From the NCBI RefSeq assembly GCF_028368935.1, contig NZ_JAQNDK010000004.1, forward strand, positions 248,001 to 312,000: a stretch of 64,000 bases of DNA, written 5' to 3'. Position 1 is the first letter of the stretch, and each line of letters opens with the position of its first letter. Below the pieces are notes generated by a model that saw only the letters and a program-made list of their open reading frames with translations, searched no databases and was not told where the DNA came from. Below, in pieces: positions 2,050 through 8,864 of this stretch. Both the position numbers and the translations under genes were made by a program. Source of the DNA: Sorangium aterium. GTDB lineage: Bacteria > Myxococcota_A > Polyangia > Polyangiales > Polyangiaceae.

Positions 2050-2415
2050 ATGTCGATCGAGCTCAACCACACCATCGTCCCCGCGCACGACAAGGAGGCT
2101 GCCGCGCAGTTCTTCGCGCGCATGTTCGGACTCGCGGTGGACACCCCGTTCGGGCCGTTCTCCCCCGTGCGCATCAACGGCGGGCTCACGCTCGACTTCG
2201 CCGACCGGGAGACGTTCGAGCCGCACCACTACGCGTTCTTCGTGGACGACGCGGAGTTCGACCGGATCTTCGAGCGCGTCCAGCGCGCCGGCATCCCCTT
2301 CAGCGCCGATCCGCACGCGAAGGAGATGGGCCGGATCAACCACCGGAAGGGCGGCCGCGGCTTCTACTTCCGCGATCTCGACGGGCACATCCTCGAGGTG
2401 CTGACGCGCGCGTGA
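2050..2415 (+). CDS. VOC (glyoxalase/bleomycin resistance/dioxygenase fold) protein
   Basis: A 121-residue single-domain protein, the usual length of one VOC module pair. It opens with LNHTIVPAHDKEAAAQFFA, has a central HHYAFFVDD and closes with GFYFRDLDGHILEVLT, the typical VOC ending. Probable metal ligands are His7, His59 or His60 and Glu116. GAGGGGAT stands just before the ATG. The substrate is unknown; members may be lyases, dioxygenases or drug-binding proteins. The last 26 bases of the gene are duplicated downstream of the neighbouring monooxygenase gene. Confidence 0.85.
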   Translation: MSIELNHTIVPAHDKEAAAQFFARMFGLAVDTPFGPFSPVRINGGLTLDFADRETFEPHHYAFFVDDAEFDRIFERVQRAGIPFSADPHAKEMGRINHRKGGRGFYFRDLDGHILEVLTRA

Positions 2416-2416
2416 G
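2390..2416. repeat. 27-bp direct repeat, left copy (end of VOC gene)
   Basis: Identical to 4790-4816. This copy codes for the last residues (LEVLTRA) and stop of the VOC protein. The two copies bracket the regulator/monooxygenase pair. Confidence 0.9.
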
Positions 2417-2440
2417 CTCGGCTTCGCGTCGCGGGCCCGC

Positions 2441-3400
2441 TCATTCGCGCGGCCGCAGCGTCTTCATGAGGCCGTCGATCATCGGCTGGAGGCCGAACTC
2501 GAACACGCGATCGAGGTTGAAATCGTACCCGCCCGAGAGCTCGTTCAGCAGCCTTGCGAAGCTCGGATACGGCCCCGACGTCGCGATCGCCAGGAACGCG
2601 GCCCCCTGCGATTCGTTCCACTGCGCTTCGGTCATCCCCGTGGTCGCCTCGGCCTCGCGCTCCGACTCTAGGTTCACGGCGACGCCGCGAACGTAGCTGT
2701 AGAGCGTCATGTGCGCCTCGATCCGGGTCACCGCGTCGAGCCCGGGGGCTTCCATGGCTCGCAGGATCCACTCGGCGTGCGCGATCACGTTGCGCAGCGC
2801 GACCGGCCGCGCGAGCGGCATCACGTGCGCGAGCCACCCGTGCCGCCGGTACAGCGCCCACTGCGCGCGGGCCGCGCGGATCAGGGCCTCGCGCAGATCG
2901 CGAGGAGGCGATCTCGGCAGCGGGTGTTCGCCGAACACCTCATCGATCATGAGGAGCACGAGCGCGTCTTTCCCCTCCACATACCGGTAGAGCGACATCG
3001 TCGGCACGCCGAGCTTCGCGGCGACACCGCGCATGGAGAGGGCGTCGAGCCCCTCGTCGTCGGCGAGCAGGATGGCGATCTGCACGATCCGCTCGCGCGT
3101 CAGGGCGCCGCCTCGTTCGGACGGCTCGCGTGCCGCGCGATCGCCCTCGGCCACCACGTGGCCCGAGCGCGGGATCGATCGGATGAGCCCCTCGTGGCGC
3201 AGGGTCGACAGCGCCTTGGTGGCGGTGGCGTGCGCGACGCCGAAGGAGCGGACGATCTGGCGCGTCGATGGGATGCGATCGCCCGCACGGAGGCGCCCGG
3301 ACGCGATGCGCGCGCGCAATTCGTTCACGATCTGCACGTAGGGCGGTCCGTCGCCCGACTTGCGACGGTTCGTCGACGCACCGCGCTTCACCGGAGGCAT
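2441..3400 (-). CDS. GntR-TetR type fusion transcriptional regulator
   Basis: A 319-residue cytoplasmic regulator with two DNA-binding regions. Residues about 17-82 form a GntR winged helix (YVQIVNELRARIASGRL, IPSTRQIVRSFGV, LRHEGLIR). A Pro/Arg linker leads to a TetR helix-turn-helix at about 100-150 (RIVQIAILLADDEG, LSMRGVAAKLGVPTMSLYRYV), followed by a TetR C-terminal ligand-binding domain. The frame stays open for 33 further codons upstream, but the ATG at 3400 is preferred because the GntR domain follows it closely. It is divergent from the FAD monooxygenase; two identical palindromes lie between them. By analogy with such pairs it is probably a repressor released by a small aromatic or drug-like ligand. 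Confidence 0.85.
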   Translation of the reverse strand: MPPVKRGASTNRRKSGDGPPYVQIVNELRARIASGRLRAGDRIPSTRQIVRSFGVAHATATKALSTLRHEGLIRSIPRSGHVVAEGDRAAREPSERGGALTRERIVQIAILLADDEGLDALSMRGVAAKLGVPTMSLYRYVEGKDALVLLMIDEVFGEHPLPRSPPRDLREALIRAARAQWALYRRHGWLAHVMPLARPVALRNVIAHAEWILRAMEAPGLDAVTRIEAHMTLYSYVRGVAVNLESEREAEATTGMTEAQWNESQGAAFLAIATSGPYPSFARLLNELSGGYDFNLDRVFEFGLQPMIDGLMKTLRPRE

Positions 3401-3546
3401 GGTGACTGTACTAGCACAGATGTTCCGTTGAAAGAGCGCGCGATGGCGCCGGGATAGAGCGCGCAGCCGCAGCTGTTCTAGCCTAGAATCTTCGGCCATG
3501 GCGCCCTAGGGGGGGTGCCGGGCGCCGCCGTCGTCGCCATGCTCGT

Positions 3547-3586
3547 GCGTACGTCGTACGCGACAGGTTGCGTACGTCGTACGCAA
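3547..3586. promoter_or_regulatory. Twin palindromic operators of the GntR/TetR-type regulator
   Basis: Two copies of the perfect 15-bp dyad GCGTACGTCGTACGC lie at 3547-3561 and 3570-3584, with centres 23 bp apart. The right copy extends to the 19-bp palindrome TTGCGTACGTCGTACGCAA (3568-3586). They sit 20-60 bp before the monooxygenase start, where a bound repressor would block its promoter. Confidence 0.8.
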
Positions 3587-3605
3587 CCTTCCCCCCGAGG
3601 TCCCC

Positions 3606-4787
3606 ATGTCGAACGGCACCGTCCTCGTCTCCGGCGCAGGCATCGCAGGCCCCGCGCTCGCCTACTGGCTCTCGCGTCGCGGGTTCACCCCCACCGTGGT
3701 GGAGCGCGCCCCCGCCCTGCGGGCAGGAGGCAACGCCGTGGACTTCCGCGGGCCGACGCACCTGCGCGTCCTCGGCGAGATGGGGGTGCTCGACGCGATT
3801 CGACAGCATCAGACCCACATGCGGGATCTCGCCATGGTGGACGAGGCCGGCCGGCGAATCGTCACGCTCCCCGCGGCGTTCGCGAGCGGCGACGTCGAGA
3901 TCGAGCGCGGCGATCTCAGCCGCATCCTCCACGACGCCGCGAAGGACGCGGCCGAGTTCGTGTTCGACGACAGCATCGCCTCGCTCACCGAGACGCCCGG
4001 CGGCGTCGACGTCACGTTCGAGCGCGGCCGGCCGCGGCGCTTCGACCTGGTCGTGGGCGCCGACGGGCTGCACTCCCGCGTGCGCGCGCTCGCGTTCGGC
4101 GACGAGTCGAGGTTCCTGCGCTTCCACGGCCATTACGTGGCGACGTTCGCCGCGCCGAACCACCTCGGCCTCGATCACCAGGGCCTCATCTTCAGCGAGC
4201 CGGGGCGGGCCGCCAGCATCACGAGCGCCCGCCGCCCCGACGAGGCAACGGCGCTCCTGATGTTCGCCTCCAGGCCGCTCGACCACGATCCGCGCGAGGT
4301 CGCGCAGCACAAGGCGATCCTGGCCGAGCGGTTTGCGGGGATGGGGTGGGAGGTGCCGCGTCTGCTCGAGGCGATGAGGCAGAGTCCGAGTCTGTATTTC
4401 GACGCCGTGGGGCGGATCGACATGGATAGCTATTCCCGCGGTCGCGTCGTGCTCCTGGGCGACGCCGGCTACGGCGGCACCCTCGGCGGACAGGGGACCG
4501 GCCTCGCCGTGGTCTGCGCGTACGTGCTCGCGGGTGAGCTCGCCGTCGCGAAGGGAGATCATCGCGCCGCGTTCCAGCGCTACGAGGCGCGGATCCGTCG
4601 GTATGCCCGGCGCTGCCAGCAGGGGGCGAAGCACGTCGGCTCGTTCTACGCACCGCCGACCCGCGTGCAGCTCGCGCTGCGCAACACGATGTACCGGGCG
4701 CTCACCTCGCGCCCGCTCTCCCGCTGGTTCGAGAAGATGGTCACGAGCGCCGCCAGCGACCTCGTGCTCCCCGCGTACCCGGCGTGA
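3606..4787 (+). CDS. FAD-dependent monooxygenase (TetX/aromatic hydroxylase type)
   Basis: A 393-residue flavoprotein of the p-hydroxybenzoate hydroxylase group. It shows the FAD-binding GAGIAG loop (residues 10-15) with the downstream VVER acidic end, the GADGLHSRVR motif that touches both FAD and NAD(P)H (151-160), and VVLLGDAGYGG (281-291), which binds the FAD ribose. Such enzymes hydroxylate aromatic compounds or inactivate antibiotics such as tetracyclines or rifamycins; the substrate here is not readable. CGAGG precedes the ATG. Expression is probably controlled by the divergent GntR/TetR protein through the twin palindromes upstream. Confidence 0.9.
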   Translation: MSNGTVLVSGAGIAGPALAYWLSRRGFTPTVVERAPALRAGGNAVDFRGPTHLRVLGEMGVLDAIRQHQTHMRDLAMVDEAGRRIVTLPAAFASGDVEIERGDLSRILHDAAKDAAEFVFDDSIASLTETPGGVDVTFERGRPRRFDLVVGADGLHSRVRALAFGDESRFLRFHGHYVATFAAPNHLGLDHQGLIFSEPGRAASITSARRPDEATALLMFASRPLDHDPREVAQHKAILAERFAGMGWEVPRLLEAMRQSPSLYFDAVGRIDMDSYSRGRVVLLGDAGYGGTLGGQGTGLAVVCAYVLAGELAVAKGDHRAAFQRYEARIRRYARRCQQGAKHVGSFYAPPTRVQLALRNTMYRALTSRPLSRWFEKMVTSAASDLVLPAYPA

Positions 4788-4789
4788 CC

Positions 4790-4816
4790 TCCTCGAGGTG
4801 CTGACGCGCGCGTGAG
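4790..4816. repeat. 27-bp direct repeat, right copy
   Basis: An exact copy of 2390-2416, including the VOC stop codon, but with no VOC gene attached. It begins two bases after the monooxygenase stop codon. Confidence 0.9.
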
Positions 4817-4867: not shown

Positions 4868-5200
4868 TCAGCGCGCGTCGATGACGTCGAGGCCGCCTGG
4901 GAGGACGACGAAAAAGACGCTCTCCTCCTCGGCGTATCCGTCGTGGCGCTCGCCCGGCGCGGTCCATAGGTAGTCGCCTGGCGAGAGCACCCGCTCGCCG
5001 ATCCGAAGCCTCCCCGAGACGAGGTACGTCTCTTCGCCGCCGGGGTGGTCGTGGCGCCGCGCGTGCGCCCCCTTCTCCATGCGAACGAGCACCGTGAGCC
5101 CGTTGCCGCCGTCGTGGCGGCGCAGGAAGCTGAACTGGATGCCGGGCGCGACGGTCTCGAAGGACTGATCTTGCTGAGGGCGGAAGGTCGTCGTGTTCAT
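4868..5200 (-). CDS. Small cupin-domain protein
   Basis: A 110-residue single cupin barrel. Metal-site motif 1 is visible as GAHARRHDHPGGEETYLVSGRLRIG and motif 2 as LSPGDYLWTAPGERHDGY; the His-x-His, Glu and the later His are the expected ligands. Small cupins of this size act as metal-dependent enzymes or as sensors. It is divergent from a LysR regulator only 69 bases away, so it is probably that regulator's target. A role in handling a reactive or aromatic compound is possible but not shown. Confidence 0.8.
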   Translation of the reverse strand: MNTTTFRPQQDQSFETVAPGIQFSFLRRHDGGNGLTVLVRMEKGAHARRHDHPGGEETYLVSGRLRIGERVLSPGDYLWTAPGERHDGYAEEESVFFVVLPGGLDVIDAR

Positions 5201-5225
5201 GAATCCACTATGATCGTCGTCTCGG

Positions 5226-5270
5226 CATGTGAGAAACTCATGTTTCGCATGGCTTCATGAGGGCAGCTCA
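5226..5270. promoter_or_regulatory. Inverted repeats between cupin and LysR genes
   Basis: The short divergent spacer holds TGAG-AAA-CTCA and, at 5255-5269, the perfect ATGAG-GGCAG-CTCAT, which overlaps the ribosome-binding site and start of the LysR gene. CTCATG recurs twice. These are plausible LysR boxes for control of both genes and for autoregulation. Confidence 0.5.
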
Positions 5271-6205
5271 TGTCCCAGATGCTCGAGATCCGCCACCTCC
5301 GCCTCGTCCGCGCCATCGCCGAAGAGGGCGGGCCCACGCGCGCCGCGGCGCGCCTTCACCTGACGCAGTCCGCCGTGAGCCATCAGCTCGCCGAGCTCGA
5401 AGGCCGCCTCGGGGTCGTCCTGTTCACGCGCGTCCGGCGCCAGCTCAAGCTCACCCCGGCCGGCGCGCGGCTGCTCGACGCCGCGCGCACGATGCTCGTC
5501 GATCTGGCGCGTATCGAGCGGGACCTGCAGTACGCCGGATCGCGCAGGCACGAGGTATTCCGCATCGCCGTCGAGTGCTTCACCACGTACTACTGGCTCC
5601 CGCCGGTCCTCTCGGCGCTCGCGAAGGACCATCCGCACGTCGACGTGCGCATCGTGCTCGAGGCGCGGCGCGAGCCCGTCGCCGCGCTCCTCCGCGGCGA
5701 GATCGAGCTCGCCGTCGTGAGCTCGCCGGTGCGTGATCGCGCGCTCGTCGTCGAGCCGCTCTTCGAGGACGAGTGGACGGTCATCGTCTCACCGTCGCAC
5801 CCGCTCGCCGCGCGTCCGTACGTCACCGCGATCGAGCTCGGTCAGGAGAAGCTCCTCACCCACGACGCCCCGCGGAGCGACGTCGAGCGACTTCGCGAGC
5901 TCATCGCCAGCGAGCGCGCGCCGATGCCGCTCGCCGCGCGCATCCCGCTCACCGACGCGCTCGTGGATCTGGTCAAGGCCGGCCTCGGCGTCGGGCTCGT
6001 CTCCCGGTGGGCCGTCGCGCCGGACATCGCGCGCGGCGAGGTCGCTGCGCGCCGCCTCACCCGCGAGGGCCTCCCGGAGCAGTGGGCGGCCGTCTACAGG
6101 CGCGACGCGGCTGCGCGCTTTCCGCTCGCGCGCTTCGTCGAGCTCCTTCGCGCGCCGTCTTCCCTCATCACCCCTTCACGCGCGCGCCGGCGACGGTCCC
6201 GTTGA
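5270..6205 (+). CDS. LysR-family transcriptional regulator
   Basis: A 311-residue regulator of normal LysR length. The N-terminal winged helix spans about residues 6-65 (LRLVRAIAEEGGPTRAAARLHLTQSAVSHQLAELE, shown here only as a pattern of the usual TQSAVSHQL recognition helix). A type 2 periplasmic-binding-like effector domain follows. GAGGGCAGCTC before the ATG gives the start. The divergent cupin gene is the likely target. The last 15 or so residues are Arg/Ser-rich and probably disordered. Confidence 0.9.
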   Translation: MSQMLEIRHLRLVRAIAEEGGPTRAAARLHLTQSAVSHQLAELEGRLGVVLFTRVRRQLKLTPAGARLLDAARTMLVDLARIERDLQYAGSRRHEVFRIAVECFTTYYWLPPVLSALAKDHPHVDVRIVLEARREPVAALLRGEIELAVVSSPVRDRALVVEPLFEDEWTVIVSPSHPLAARPYVTAIELGQEKLLTHDAPRSDVERLRELIASERAPMPLAARIPLTDALVDLVKAGLGVGLVSRWAVAPDIARGEVAARRLTREGLPEQWAAVYRRDAAARFPLARFVELLRAPSSLITPSRARRRRSR

Positions 6206-6251
6206 CGATGGCCTGTCTTTCCCAAGGGGCGTCAGGCCGTCGACGAGGACT

Positions 6252-6355
6252 GAGCCGGCGCGCCCACCGATGTTCCAGCGTGCTCACCCACCCGAGGGCC
6301 GCCGCGCTGGAAGAGCACCGGTCCTGCGCCGCAAGGCGCTCGGGACGCTGCATAG
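6252..6355 (+). pseudogene. Transposase C-terminal remnant, copy 1 (IS91-like pattern)
   Basis: Three-frame reading gives TDVPACSPTRGPPRWKST, then after a frame change PVLRRKALG. The fragment at 35038-35209 reads the same way (TDVPARSPS, GPPYWKST, VRRKALGD). The pattern, preceded in the other copy by a Cys/Gly zinc-type motif, looks like the extreme C-terminus of an IS91-type transposase. The family name is inference; the homology between the two fragments is seen. It fills the gap between two convergent genes. Confidence 0.55.
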
Positions 6356-6369
6356 CCGCGCGGGCTGAC

Positions 6370-6918
6370 TCAACCCTCGCGCGCCGCGCGGATCGCCTCC
6401 GCGAGGCCGGCGGCGGTGAGCTCGGGGTCCTTCAGGAGCGTCGCCGCCCAGGTCGCGAGCTCGCCGGTCGTCCGGAAGACGTTCGGCGCCCGCCCCGTGG
6501 TCAGCGCCATCATGATGGAGCGGACCGAGGAGGCGATGAACCCCTCCGACTCGACGAGCGTGGCCGTGCCCCTGAGGTTCCGGGAAGGGGAGCTCGCCGC
6601 CCGCCGCATCGCGGCCCGGCTCGCCTCGTCCGGCGGTAGGGTGTGCTGAAGGGGGAGGACGACGACGAAGACCGCGCCGCCCGGCTGGCTCGCCGACCAG
6701 CGAGCGAAGAGCTCCCGCGAGCGATCGATCCCGGCCGCGCTGGCATTGCCCCGCCAGACCAGCAGCATGAGCCGCCGCCACACCGCCACCACGTACCCGT
6801 CCGTGCGTTCGAGCAGCTCGGCCGTCATCGGAGGCAGCTCGGCCGTCATCGGAGGAGGACGGGCCGTTATCATCGTGGAGGATTGTCCTTCCGCCGGGGG
6901 GATGGTCGTCAAGCCCAT
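6370..6918 (-). CDS. Conserved-looking hypothetical protein
   Basis: Up to 182 residues, not recognised. The core reads as a compact mixed fold with YVVAVWRRLMLLVWRG, a strand-like AVFVVVLPLQHTLPPDEA, and a C-terminal helical part (ATWAATLLKDPELTAAGLAEAIRAAREG). The N-terminus has PPMTAEL twice in a row, from a 21-bp duplication, so the true start could be 6918, 6873 or one of the ATGs inside the repeat. No signal peptide or membrane segment is seen. It is convergent with the LysR gene. Confidence 0.6.
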   Translation of the reverse strand: MGLTTIPPAEGQSSTMITARPPPMTAELPPMTAELLERTDGYVVAVWRRLMLLVWRGNASAAGIDRSRELFARWSASQPGGAVFVVVLPLQHTLPPDEASRAAMRRAASSPSRNLRGTATLVESEGFIASSVRSIMMALTTGRAPNVFRTTGELATWAATLLKDPELTAAGLAEAIRAAREG

Positions 6919-6930
6919 GCCGCTACTCCG

Positions 6931-7008
6931 ACGCTCGCGATCCCGCCGCTTCGGTTCGCCGCGTCACACTTTCTCGCGCAGCGATCCGGCTTCTTTTTCC
7001 TGCGCGCT
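6931..7008 (+). repeat. 78-bp dispersed coding-like fragment, copy 1
   Basis: Matches 39054-39131 base for base without gaps. Both read TLA[I/V]PP[L/V]RFAA in one plus-strand frame and go on to RSGFF. Eight of the 16 differences are third-position and all eight are silent, so this was once protein-coding. The parent gene is not recognised. Confidence 0.6.
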
Positions 7009-7119
7009 CCAGGGGATCGAGGGGAAGCTGCGCGACGACCAGAAGCTTCTCCCCGGGGGCCGCCGGTGCCGAGAAGGAATAAGAATATGCAGAAGGTCGA
7101 GCAGGCGTCATGATCCGTC

Positions 7120-8121
7120 TCACCCCTTGTTTCCCGCTCGCCGCTCGAACCGCAGCCTGAGCACCTCGTCCTCGAGCTCGTTCGCGATCGCCATCGCCCG
7201 CCGCCTCGCCTCCGCGCCCTCCTCGCCGGCCACGATTCGCGCCAGCATGTTCAGCGCCATCGCGCGCATCCGCATGAGCCCGCCGTCCCCCGCGTGCCGG
7301 CACGCCTCGCGCGCGAGCTCCGCGCCTTCCTCGGGGAAACCCTGCTTCCACCGCGCATACGCCAGCCCGTTCGCCCGCCGCGCCCGCGCGAAGGCCGGAC
7401 CGTCCTCCGGGATGCGCCGGTAAAGCGCCTCGGCAGCCGCCGGATCCGGCTGCTTGCCGCCCCAGGAGCGGTTCCGCTCGAAGGCGCGTTGATCGATCCA
7501 CCGGGCGAACAGGCAGGCTCGGTCGTGGGCGGGCATCGGCAGCTCGAAGAGCGGCTCGATCTCGTCGAGCAGGCCGGCCACGCGCGCGACGTCATCACGG
7601 CTCGCCAGGAAGGCCTCCGTGAGCAGAGCCTCCACCCGCGCCTCGGGCGGGGCCTTTCCGAGCAGCGGCCGGATGCGGGCGAGGTGCGCCTTTCCGGCCT
7701 CGCGGTCGTCGCCGCGCAGCGCGCAGGTGGCGTGGGTGAGGGCGAGGAAGACGTGGGAGGTCGGATCCTCGCTCACCGGCGGTCGATCCCAGAGGCGCAA
7801 GAGGTCCTGGGCGAGGGGCAGGGGCAGGTCGGTGAACCGCGAGTGATAGGCGCCCATCCAGCGGGCGCGCTCGGTGAGCGCGTCCGGCAAGCCGAAGGCC
7901 GCGAGCGCGCGCGCCCCCCACGTCCCGCCGTCCCGCTGGCCACGCGTCCGCAGCCGGCGCAGGGCGCGCTCGATCGAGGTGACGTCGTCCTCGTAGCCAC
8001 GCAGGGAGGAGAGCCGCTCGGCGACCGCGGTCAACGAGCCGTGCTGCGCGACGAGCCAGGCGACGTAATCCTCCCAGGAAAAGCCTGCGGGAGCGGCCTG
8101 TCCGGTTTCGTGTCCGGGCAT
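7120..8121 (-). CDS. Helical-repeat (TPR-like) hypothetical protein
   Basis: Using the ATG at 8121 gives 333 residues. The frame is open 32 codons further upstream but runs through the divergent spacer, so the shorter form is preferred. The N-terminal part (WEDYVAWLVAQHGSLTAVAERL, then RALRRLRTRGQ) looks like a helical DNA-binding or adaptor region. The rest is a run of helix pairs with spacing like tetratricopeptide repeats (AEALYRRIPEDGPAFARARR, EEGAELAREACRHAGD). No signal peptide is seen. It is probably cytoplasmic; the function is unknown. The start is 47 bases from the divergent exonuclease. Confidence 0.7.
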   Translation of the reverse strand: MPGHETGQAAPAGFSWEDYVAWLVAQHGSLTAVAERLSSLRGYEDDVTSIERALRRLRTRGQRDGGTWGARALAAFGLPDALTERARWMGAYHSRFTDLPLPLAQDLLRLWDRPPVSEDPTSHVFLALTHATCALRGDDREAGKAHLARIRPLLGKAPPEARVEALLTEAFLASRDDVARVAGLLDEIEPLFELPMPAHDRACLFARWIDQRAFERNRSWGGKQPDPAAAEALYRRIPEDGPAFARARRANGLAYARWKQGFPEEGAELAREACRHAGDGGLMRMRAMALNMLARIVAGEEGAEARRRAMAIANELEDEVLRLRFERRAGNKG

Positions 8122-8168
8122 TTTCTGAGGGCGGATCGTATCAAGGTTCAGCAGAAAGGAGGACGGAC

Positions 8169-8744
8169 ATGGGAAAGGATCCTGCATTTTTCCTGGTGAT
8201 CGATCTGGAGGCGACATGTGACGAGGAGGGCCGCATCCCCGAGCGCATCATGGAGATCATCGAGATCGGCGCGGTCCTCGTGGACGGCGCGACGCTCGAG
8301 CCCGTGAGCGAGCTCGCCACCTTCGTGCGCCCGGTCATCCGGCCGAAGCTCACCGAGTTCTGCACGAAGCTCACCACGATCACGCAAGCAGACGTCGATT
8401 CCGCGCCCACGTTCCCCGAAGCCATCGCGGCGCTCGGGCGCTTCGTCGGCCAGCGAGAGGCGCTCTTCTGCTCGTGGGGCGATTACGACCGCAAGCAGTT
8501 CGAGATCGACGCGGCCCGCTGGGGCGTGCCCCTGCCGCTGCAGGGGCACATGAACATCAAGAAGCGCTTCTCCGCGGCGCTCGGGGTGACCCAGCGCTAC
8601 GGCATGGCGAGCGCGCTCGAGCGGCTCGGACTCCCGCTCCACGGGACACACCACCGCGGGATCGACGACGCCCGCAACATCGCACGAATCCTGCCTTACG
8701 CGATCGGCCGCGCGCCCATCCCGGCGGCGGGGCCCGCGGGGTGA
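8169..8744 (+). CDS. DEDDh 3'-5' exonuclease (ERI1/KapD-like)
   Basis: A 191-residue exonuclease domain with nothing added. The four catalytic motifs of the DEDDh class are visible: FLVIDLEATC (Asp12, Glu14), CSWGDYDRKQ (Asp105) and HHRGIDDARN (His162, Asp167). The spacing resembles ERI1/KapD-type enzymes that trim 3' ends of RNA or DNA with two metal ions. AAAGGAGG lies eight bases before the ATG, one of the strongest ribosome-binding sites in the window. It is divergent from the TPR-like gene. The substrate is not known. Confidence 0.9.
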   Translation: MGKDPAFFLVIDLEATCDEEGRIPERIMEIIEIGAVLVDGATLEPVSELATFVRPVIRPKLTEFCTKLTTITQADVDSAPTFPEAIAALGRFVGQREALFCSWGDYDRKQFEIDAARWGVPLPLQGHMNIKKRFSAALGVTQRYGMASALERLGLPLHGTHHRGIDDARNIARILPYAIGRAPIPAAGPAG

Positions 8745-8864
8745 GCGCCTATCCCGATGCACATGCGTGAGTTGCTCCACGACGAAGCGGGCGCGGTCGA
8801 AGGCCTCGAGGAGGTCGGCGCGCTCGATCCAAACGACGGAGTCGCGTGAAGCGCTGAAGCGGTT

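Follow-up and report, generated by a model that had tools for sequence, protein, structure and literature searches.

The window analysed here is a stretch of 64,000 nucleotides from Sorangium aterium (NCBI RefSeq assembly GCF_028368935.1, contig NZ_JAQNDK010000004.1, positions 248,001 to 312,000 of the forward strand), in which a double-headed GntR-TetR regulator gene and a divergent monooxygenase gene lie between two identical 27 bp direct repeats, the left one forming the 3' end of a VOC-superfamily gene. Judged from its sequence and its occurrence elsewhere, the regulator-monooxygenase pair is a conserved, separate unit to which the 27 bp do not belong. The reading that we prefer, with a probability of about 0.5, is that this probably self-regulated pair was joined to the end of the VOC gene by one illegitimate recombination event and that the 27 bp duplication is the scar. 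A sequence-only reading made earlier had seen here a cassette integrated at a gene 3' end, or the residue of a lost second VOC gene, and is partly supported. As a mobile-element finding the locus carries little weight, showing that two genes enclosed by a repeated gene end are not necessarily a cassette; it is the regulatory architecture, more interesting than the repeat, that is worth following.

Both genes that the sequence-only reading had placed between the repeats were recovered from the list of open reading frames (ORFs) and from Pfam. The regulator matches GntR (PF00392, 2.8e-16), TetR_N (7.3e-7) and TetR_C_1 (4e-18), and in both helix-turn-helix regions, GntR and TetR, residues are conserved across the eight aligned regulator proteins. 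Its start was set at the ATG at 3400 because the palindrome at 3406–3419 would otherwise be coding; with this inferred start, the regulator and the monooxygenase cover all but 231 of the 2373 bp between the repeat copies. A further 15 ORFs of at least 60 amino acids overlap the same stretch in other frames, and the ten of them that were scanned against Pfam gave no match. A defence-system reading was rejected, the only PADLOC match being a weak one of a desaturase-like model to the monooxygenase.

In a census of 108 genomes of the family Polyangiaceae (E-value of 1e-50 or better, at most 19 candidates scored per genome), the GntR-TetR regulator was found at eight places in seven genomes, the source genome counted. 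A monooxygenase relative divergently adjoins it at five of the seven other places (in G013, G006, G175 and G165, and at one of two places in G148), and at none of the seven is there a VOC relative in the 6–14 kb fetched. Since the pair occurs in five other family genomes with no VOC gene nearby, it is a unit independent of the 27 bp; the separable unit of the sequence-only reading thus stands, but its status as an integrated cassette is not supported.

The intergenic region between the divergent genes (3401–3605, 205 bp) contains two unlike conserved palindromes, here named P1 and P2 (Table 1), and the perfect 25 bp palindrome that holds the second P2 copy stops 16 bp short of the monooxygenase start. 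Six of the eight regulator loci have P1 with at most 2 mismatches, the two G148 loci showing degenerate forms; P2 stands within 2 mismatches upstream of seven of the eight regulators, window included, with a degenerate form in G165. Among 183 genomes of the order, five carry the exact motif CTGTACTAGYACAG, each at a single place, and every one of the five places lies just upstream of a GntR-TetR gene. As its reversed-letter control occurs in more genomes than the motif itself, its rarity is partly compositional, and it is the placement rather than the rarity that is evidence. The exact form of P2, TGCGTACN3GTACGCA, was found in 5 of the 108 family genomes; two of its five places are at a regulator-monooxygenase pair, and the other three have no relative of a window protein within 1.5 kb. 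P2-like matches with 2 mismatches also occur elsewhere in the scanned loci, and the value of P2 as a marker specific to the pair is weakened, the exact form lying mostly (3/5) away from such a pair.

The GntR-TetR protein probably binds these intergenic palindromes and represses both genes. It has the TetR_N and TetR_C_1 domains of SimR/ActR-like repressors together with the N-terminal winged helix of the GntR family. A divergent enzyme lies beside the regulator in the window and at five of the seven other loci, and the palindromes, as candidate operators, are conserved. Among structures in the PDB, SimR is closest to the TetR domain (E 6.6e-31), and ActR also matches (E 1.5e-12). We propose a conserved, self-contained repressor and enzyme pair in which the regulator would bind the palindromes and keep both genes repressed until a small aromatic (polyketide-like) ligand enters the SimR/ActR-like TetR domain; the monooxygenase would then oxidize the ligand that released the regulator.

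How the two DNA-binding heads might divide the palindromes was approached with seven actinobacterial loci in which the regulator relative matches the TetR part only, compared with shuffled controls. P1 is absent upstream of these seven TetR-only relatives, the best site having 7 mismatches in each and being no better than in shuffles. A P2-like site before the monooxygenase is close in two of the seven (2 mismatches in L066 and 3 in L067, with 0 of 300 shuffles in each case), marginal in L086 and absent from the other four. A third pattern tried on these loci was composed after viewing the same stretches and is no independent test. With P1 absent from all seven TetR-only loci and P2 close in two of them, the assignment leans towards the GntR head reading P1 and the TetR head P2, and our confidence in a double-headed repressor is raised a little, to a level still somewhat short of even. 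In such a repressor the GntR head would sit on CTGTACTAGYACAG at the regulator's own promoter and the TetR head on GCGTACGNCGTACGC at the monooxygenase promoter, so that the protein would bridge the intergenic region and one ligand would release both. The locus is a small and testable example in which one protein with two unlike DNA-binding domains is found together with two unlike conserved palindromes and one enzyme of a drug-modifying type; should the assignment prove right, it would illustrate the coupling of two regulator families within a single bacterial polypeptide. Among the titles and abstract beginnings listed for fusions of GntR with TetR, none describes such a double-headed regulator, which is weak evidence of absence, most subscription journals lying outside the literature covered.

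The monooxygenase scores 265.8 bits against the tetracycline destructase model NF033476, for which the cut-off is 550, and so is a relative, not a member, of the tetracycline destructases. Two general flavin adenine dinucleotide (FAD)-binding NCBIfam models outscore NF033476, both below their own cut-offs, NF005761 being a better match at 337.3 bits against a cut-off of 454. In the PDB the enzyme comes nearest to type 2 tetracycline destructases, such as Tet(56) (E 9.5e-71), and to 6-hydroxynicotinate 3-monooxygenases, and its predicted substrate is aromatic. Destructase outliers of this kind are reported mostly to have conferred no resistance in Escherichia coli (PMC10944477). A survey of related-monooxygenase loci returned 31, of which 30 were examined, the So0008-312 record being left out, and seven of the 30 have a TetR-type relative of the regulator alongside.

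Table 1. Features of the window discussed in the text (positions are those of the window; a dot means that no strand is given)
Feature	Position	Strand	Remarks
VOC-superfamily protein, 121 aa, ChaP/All3014-like	2050..2415	+	Pfam PF00903 4e-7; PDB
Left 27 bp copy	2390..2416	+	VOC 3' end, native; 3' end conserved in G148
GntR-TetR double-headed regulator	2441..3400	-	start ATG 3400 inferred; longest ORF 2441-3499
Palindrome P1, CTGTACTAGCACAG	3406..3419	.	5 bp from inferred regulator start; likely operator
Palindrome TTCTAGCCTAGAA	3476..3488	.	possible weaker third site
Palindrome P2 first copy, GCGTACGTCGTACGC	3547..3561	.	
Palindrome P2 second copy (3570-3584) in perfect 12+1+12 palindrome	3565..3589	.	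likely operator
FAD monooxygenase, related to tetracycline destructases	3606..4787	+	Pfam PF01494; NCBIfam; PDB
Right 27 bp copy	4790..4816	+	probably derived
Cupin protein	4868..5200	-	right flank, outside unit
LysR regulator	5270..6205	+	right flank, outside unit

The two copies of the repeat, TCCTCGAGGTGCTGACGCGCGCGTGAG, are indeed identical, as had been claimed (27/27 bp), and match at 29/30 positions when three bases upstream are added. Within the left copy fall the final codons of the VOC ORF, stop included, and the match between the two copies breaks off 1 bp further on. At the edges of the bracketed unit, 24 bp separate the regulator stop from one edge, and 2 bp the monooxygenase stop from the other. 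The source genome comprises 13.47 Mb in seven contigs, and across all of it the 26 bp core of the repeat, at up to 3 mismatches, occurs in two places only. In four order-5 Markov sequences of 1.2 Mb each, the longest exact repeats at spacings of 300–6000 bp reached just 18–20 bp. On the strength of these two results the 27 bp repeat is a real duplication, beyond chance, and a chance repeat is ruled out. Isolated repeats like it are not unique and represent no rarity in the source genome, since 1.2 Mb of the real contig holds 23 groups of exact repeats of at least 24 bp at the same spacing. Flanks were compared for 18 of these groups, and 11 have flanks that are at least 50% identical on one or both sides, as is expected of duplicated genes. 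Five of the 18, the 27 bp repeat among them, have at most 40% flank identity on both sides; one of the four others is of low complexity, and another (872606/878007) is, by eye, similar beyond the exact repeat.

The VOC protein matches All3014 (E 3e-47) and ChaP-type entries in the PDB, and a full-length relative of 66% identity in G148 carries GTCCTCGAAGTGCTGACGCGCGC at the equivalent place, followed by five extra residues. Because this relative has nearly the same 3' end, the left copy is the native VOC 3' end, in agreement with the sequence-only reading, and the right copy probably the derived one. In the 12.5 kb fetched around the G148 gene, none of the other seven window proteins has a relative. 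Among VOC relatives at a greater distance (about 50% identity), those with plus-strand matches, read on the coding strand, have different ends that continue PYGSG or similar. To the left of the VOC gene, a 51 bp stretch (1926–1976) recurs at 94% identity in two further places of the source genome, and seven 21 bp tandem repeats (1201–1347) lie inside a minus-strand ORF (1184–2047) that would encode a Gly/Gln/Ser/Glu repeat tail.

We hypothesize that one illegitimate recombination event, at the stop codon of the VOC gene, set the pair between that gene and the cupin and LysR genes, either through end joining or through a template switch where a little homology was present. The copies cease to match 1 bp after this stop, which is what a break at the codon would produce, and the presence of a Ku homologue in all six genus genomes makes end joining possible. 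The 27 bp direct repeat would then be a duplication left by the event, a scar rather than a recombination site in use.

Several findings weigh against this reading. Simple end joining usually leaves duplications shorter than 27 bp. Two of the seven other regulator places (in G159 and the second in G148) have no monooxygenase in the fetched stretch, and a VOC gene next to cupin and LysR genes without the pair was found nowhere in searches of the genus, family and order, leaving the empty site unseen. In addition, two of the 30 related-monooxygenase loci, from two Dactylosporangium species, have a VOC gene (48–49% identical) directly after the monooxygenase and convergent with it. Since a VOC gene of the same subfamily stands beside the enzyme in two phyla, the three genes may work together, and the VOC gene may be a partner of the pair and not a target hit by chance. 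In these two loci (L062 and L064, about 5200–7700), a TetR-type regulator, a monooxygenase and a ChaP-like VOC gene stand in a row, possibly as a three-gene functional unit.

The main rival is that the right copy is the remnant of a second VOC gene, an explanation that we consider less probable than joining by one illegitimate event. A tandem duplication, or a single-crossover integration of the VOC gene and the pair, would have given the order VOC, regulator, monooxygenase, VOC, and a later deletion would have left the last 27 bp. Homologous recombination commonly gives products of such a shape, and the Dactylosporangium loci do show a VOC gene after the monooxygenase; the sequence-only reading had taken an intact second VOC gene at that place in relatives as the sign of simple gene decay. 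The Dactylosporangium genes match that description in subfamily and position, but they run the opposite way to the right-hand copy and are no direct display of the lost gene. The five other family pairs have no VOC relative in the fetched stretch, and the end of the duplicate 1 bp past the VOC stop would require a second coincidence. Further evidence comes from Sorangium cellulosum So0008-312 (G005), in which the final bases of the monooxygenase copy before a dispersed element, TCATCGAGG, resemble the start of the right copy, TCCTCGAGG, with about 10 bp in common past the monooxygenase stop. The right copy may on this account predate the split of the two strains' copies, which would favour a second VOC gene; the resemblance is compatible both with such an age and with joining at short homology, and gives no decision between the two.

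A site-specific mobile cassette at the gene 3' end, with the 27 bp as attachment core and a recombinase supplied from elsewhere, is improbable. Direct repeats do stand at both ends, one of them completing the target gene and leaving it intact, the pair is an accessory unit, and the neighbourhood differs between strains. Against this, no integrase, transposase or other recombinase was found between the repeats by Pfam in the two genes and ten of the 15 other ORFs, which bears out the earlier remark that no integrase is inside. The 27 bp bracket nothing else in the source genome (at up to 3 mismatches) or in the 108 family genomes, where the sequence-only reading had proposed to look for other cassettes with the same ends; the single extra place resembling them, in G167, has 3 mismatches and lies in a 2.9 kb locus with no relative of the eight window proteins. 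The 26 bp core has no exact match in viral contigs, and on these pattern searches an attachment-like core used elsewhere was rejected; the look of an integrated cassette is not borne out. None of three short pieces of the repeat is present in the roughly 120 bp after the monooxygenase in four related pairs; in a fifth (L107) the same check fell mostly within the monooxygenase gene itself. As to a transposon with a target-site duplication, of 120 inverted repeats the 25 longest were listed, and not one of them links the two ends. Least probable by far, and already contradicted, is an independent origin, in which the right copy is unrelated, or an independently acquired VOC end, and alike through codon bias: the repeated codons are GC-rich like the genome, but 27 identical bp exceed the maximum in the Markov controls, the ends of genus VOC paralogues readable on the plus strand differ, and the right copy is not preceded by VOC sequence.

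Comparison with the other strain points to rearrangement of the neighbourhood. The So0008-312 monooxygenase fragment (NZ_JEMA01000624.1) is 5'-truncated, kept from about residue 141 on, with 95% DNA identity over 4018–4798 of the window, and its cupin and LysR genes (91% DNA identity) are on another contig, near an ORF that by eye resembles a transposase (L035, 9038–9754). Given this truncation and separation, these genes have been rearranged between strains, with no dedicated mechanism visible. The truncated copy abuts the end of a dispersed element that measures about 176 bp and has two 92% copies on contig 7 of the source genome. The monooxygenase flank in So0008-312, which also ends at TCGAGG, had been considered as a shared junction; it proves to be an edge of this dispersed element and is no locator of an ancestral end. 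The element end lies at 1501–1675 of L178 (source genome G000, contig 7) and at about 2368–2543 of L034, and beside the element on contig 7 is a frame that by eye resembles the start of a tyrosine recombinase. Farther right in the window, two dispersed repeat segments (6256–6356 and 6929–7008), with copies in all six genus genomes searched, flank an ORF (6370–6918); elsewhere, in several places, the gap between them is about 130 bp. The stretch 7124–8750 has 97% DNA identity to G001 and G005; no close relative of the other window proteins tested lies in the 18.0 and 10.7 kb fetched around the matches in these two genomes.

Set against known systems, the window resembles islands and cassettes at gene 3' ends in its direct repeat, which keeps the gene 3' end intact, and differs from them in having no integrase found, no second example and no empty site seen. 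The VOC protein shares full-length similarity with solved structures of ChaP-type VOC dioxygenases and All3014, and may or may not share their activity; no polyketide gene cluster was identified around its gene, no search aimed at one having been made. The monooxygenase belongs to the same flavin monooxygenase family as the type 2 destructases Tet(50)–Tet(56), with which residues 3–340 align, but it falls under the curated cut-off, and 6-hydroxynicotinate 3-monooxygenase entries match it too. The closest regulatory parallel is with SimR, which is reported to bind two operators between the divergent simR and simX genes and to be released by an antibiotic ligand, simocyclinone (PMC5812520). In the window, likewise, two candidate operators would lie in the intergenic region of divergent genes; the window regulator differs from SimR and ActR in its extra N-terminal GntR domain, its partner is a monooxygenase where SimX is an exporter, and its two palindromes are unlike each other.

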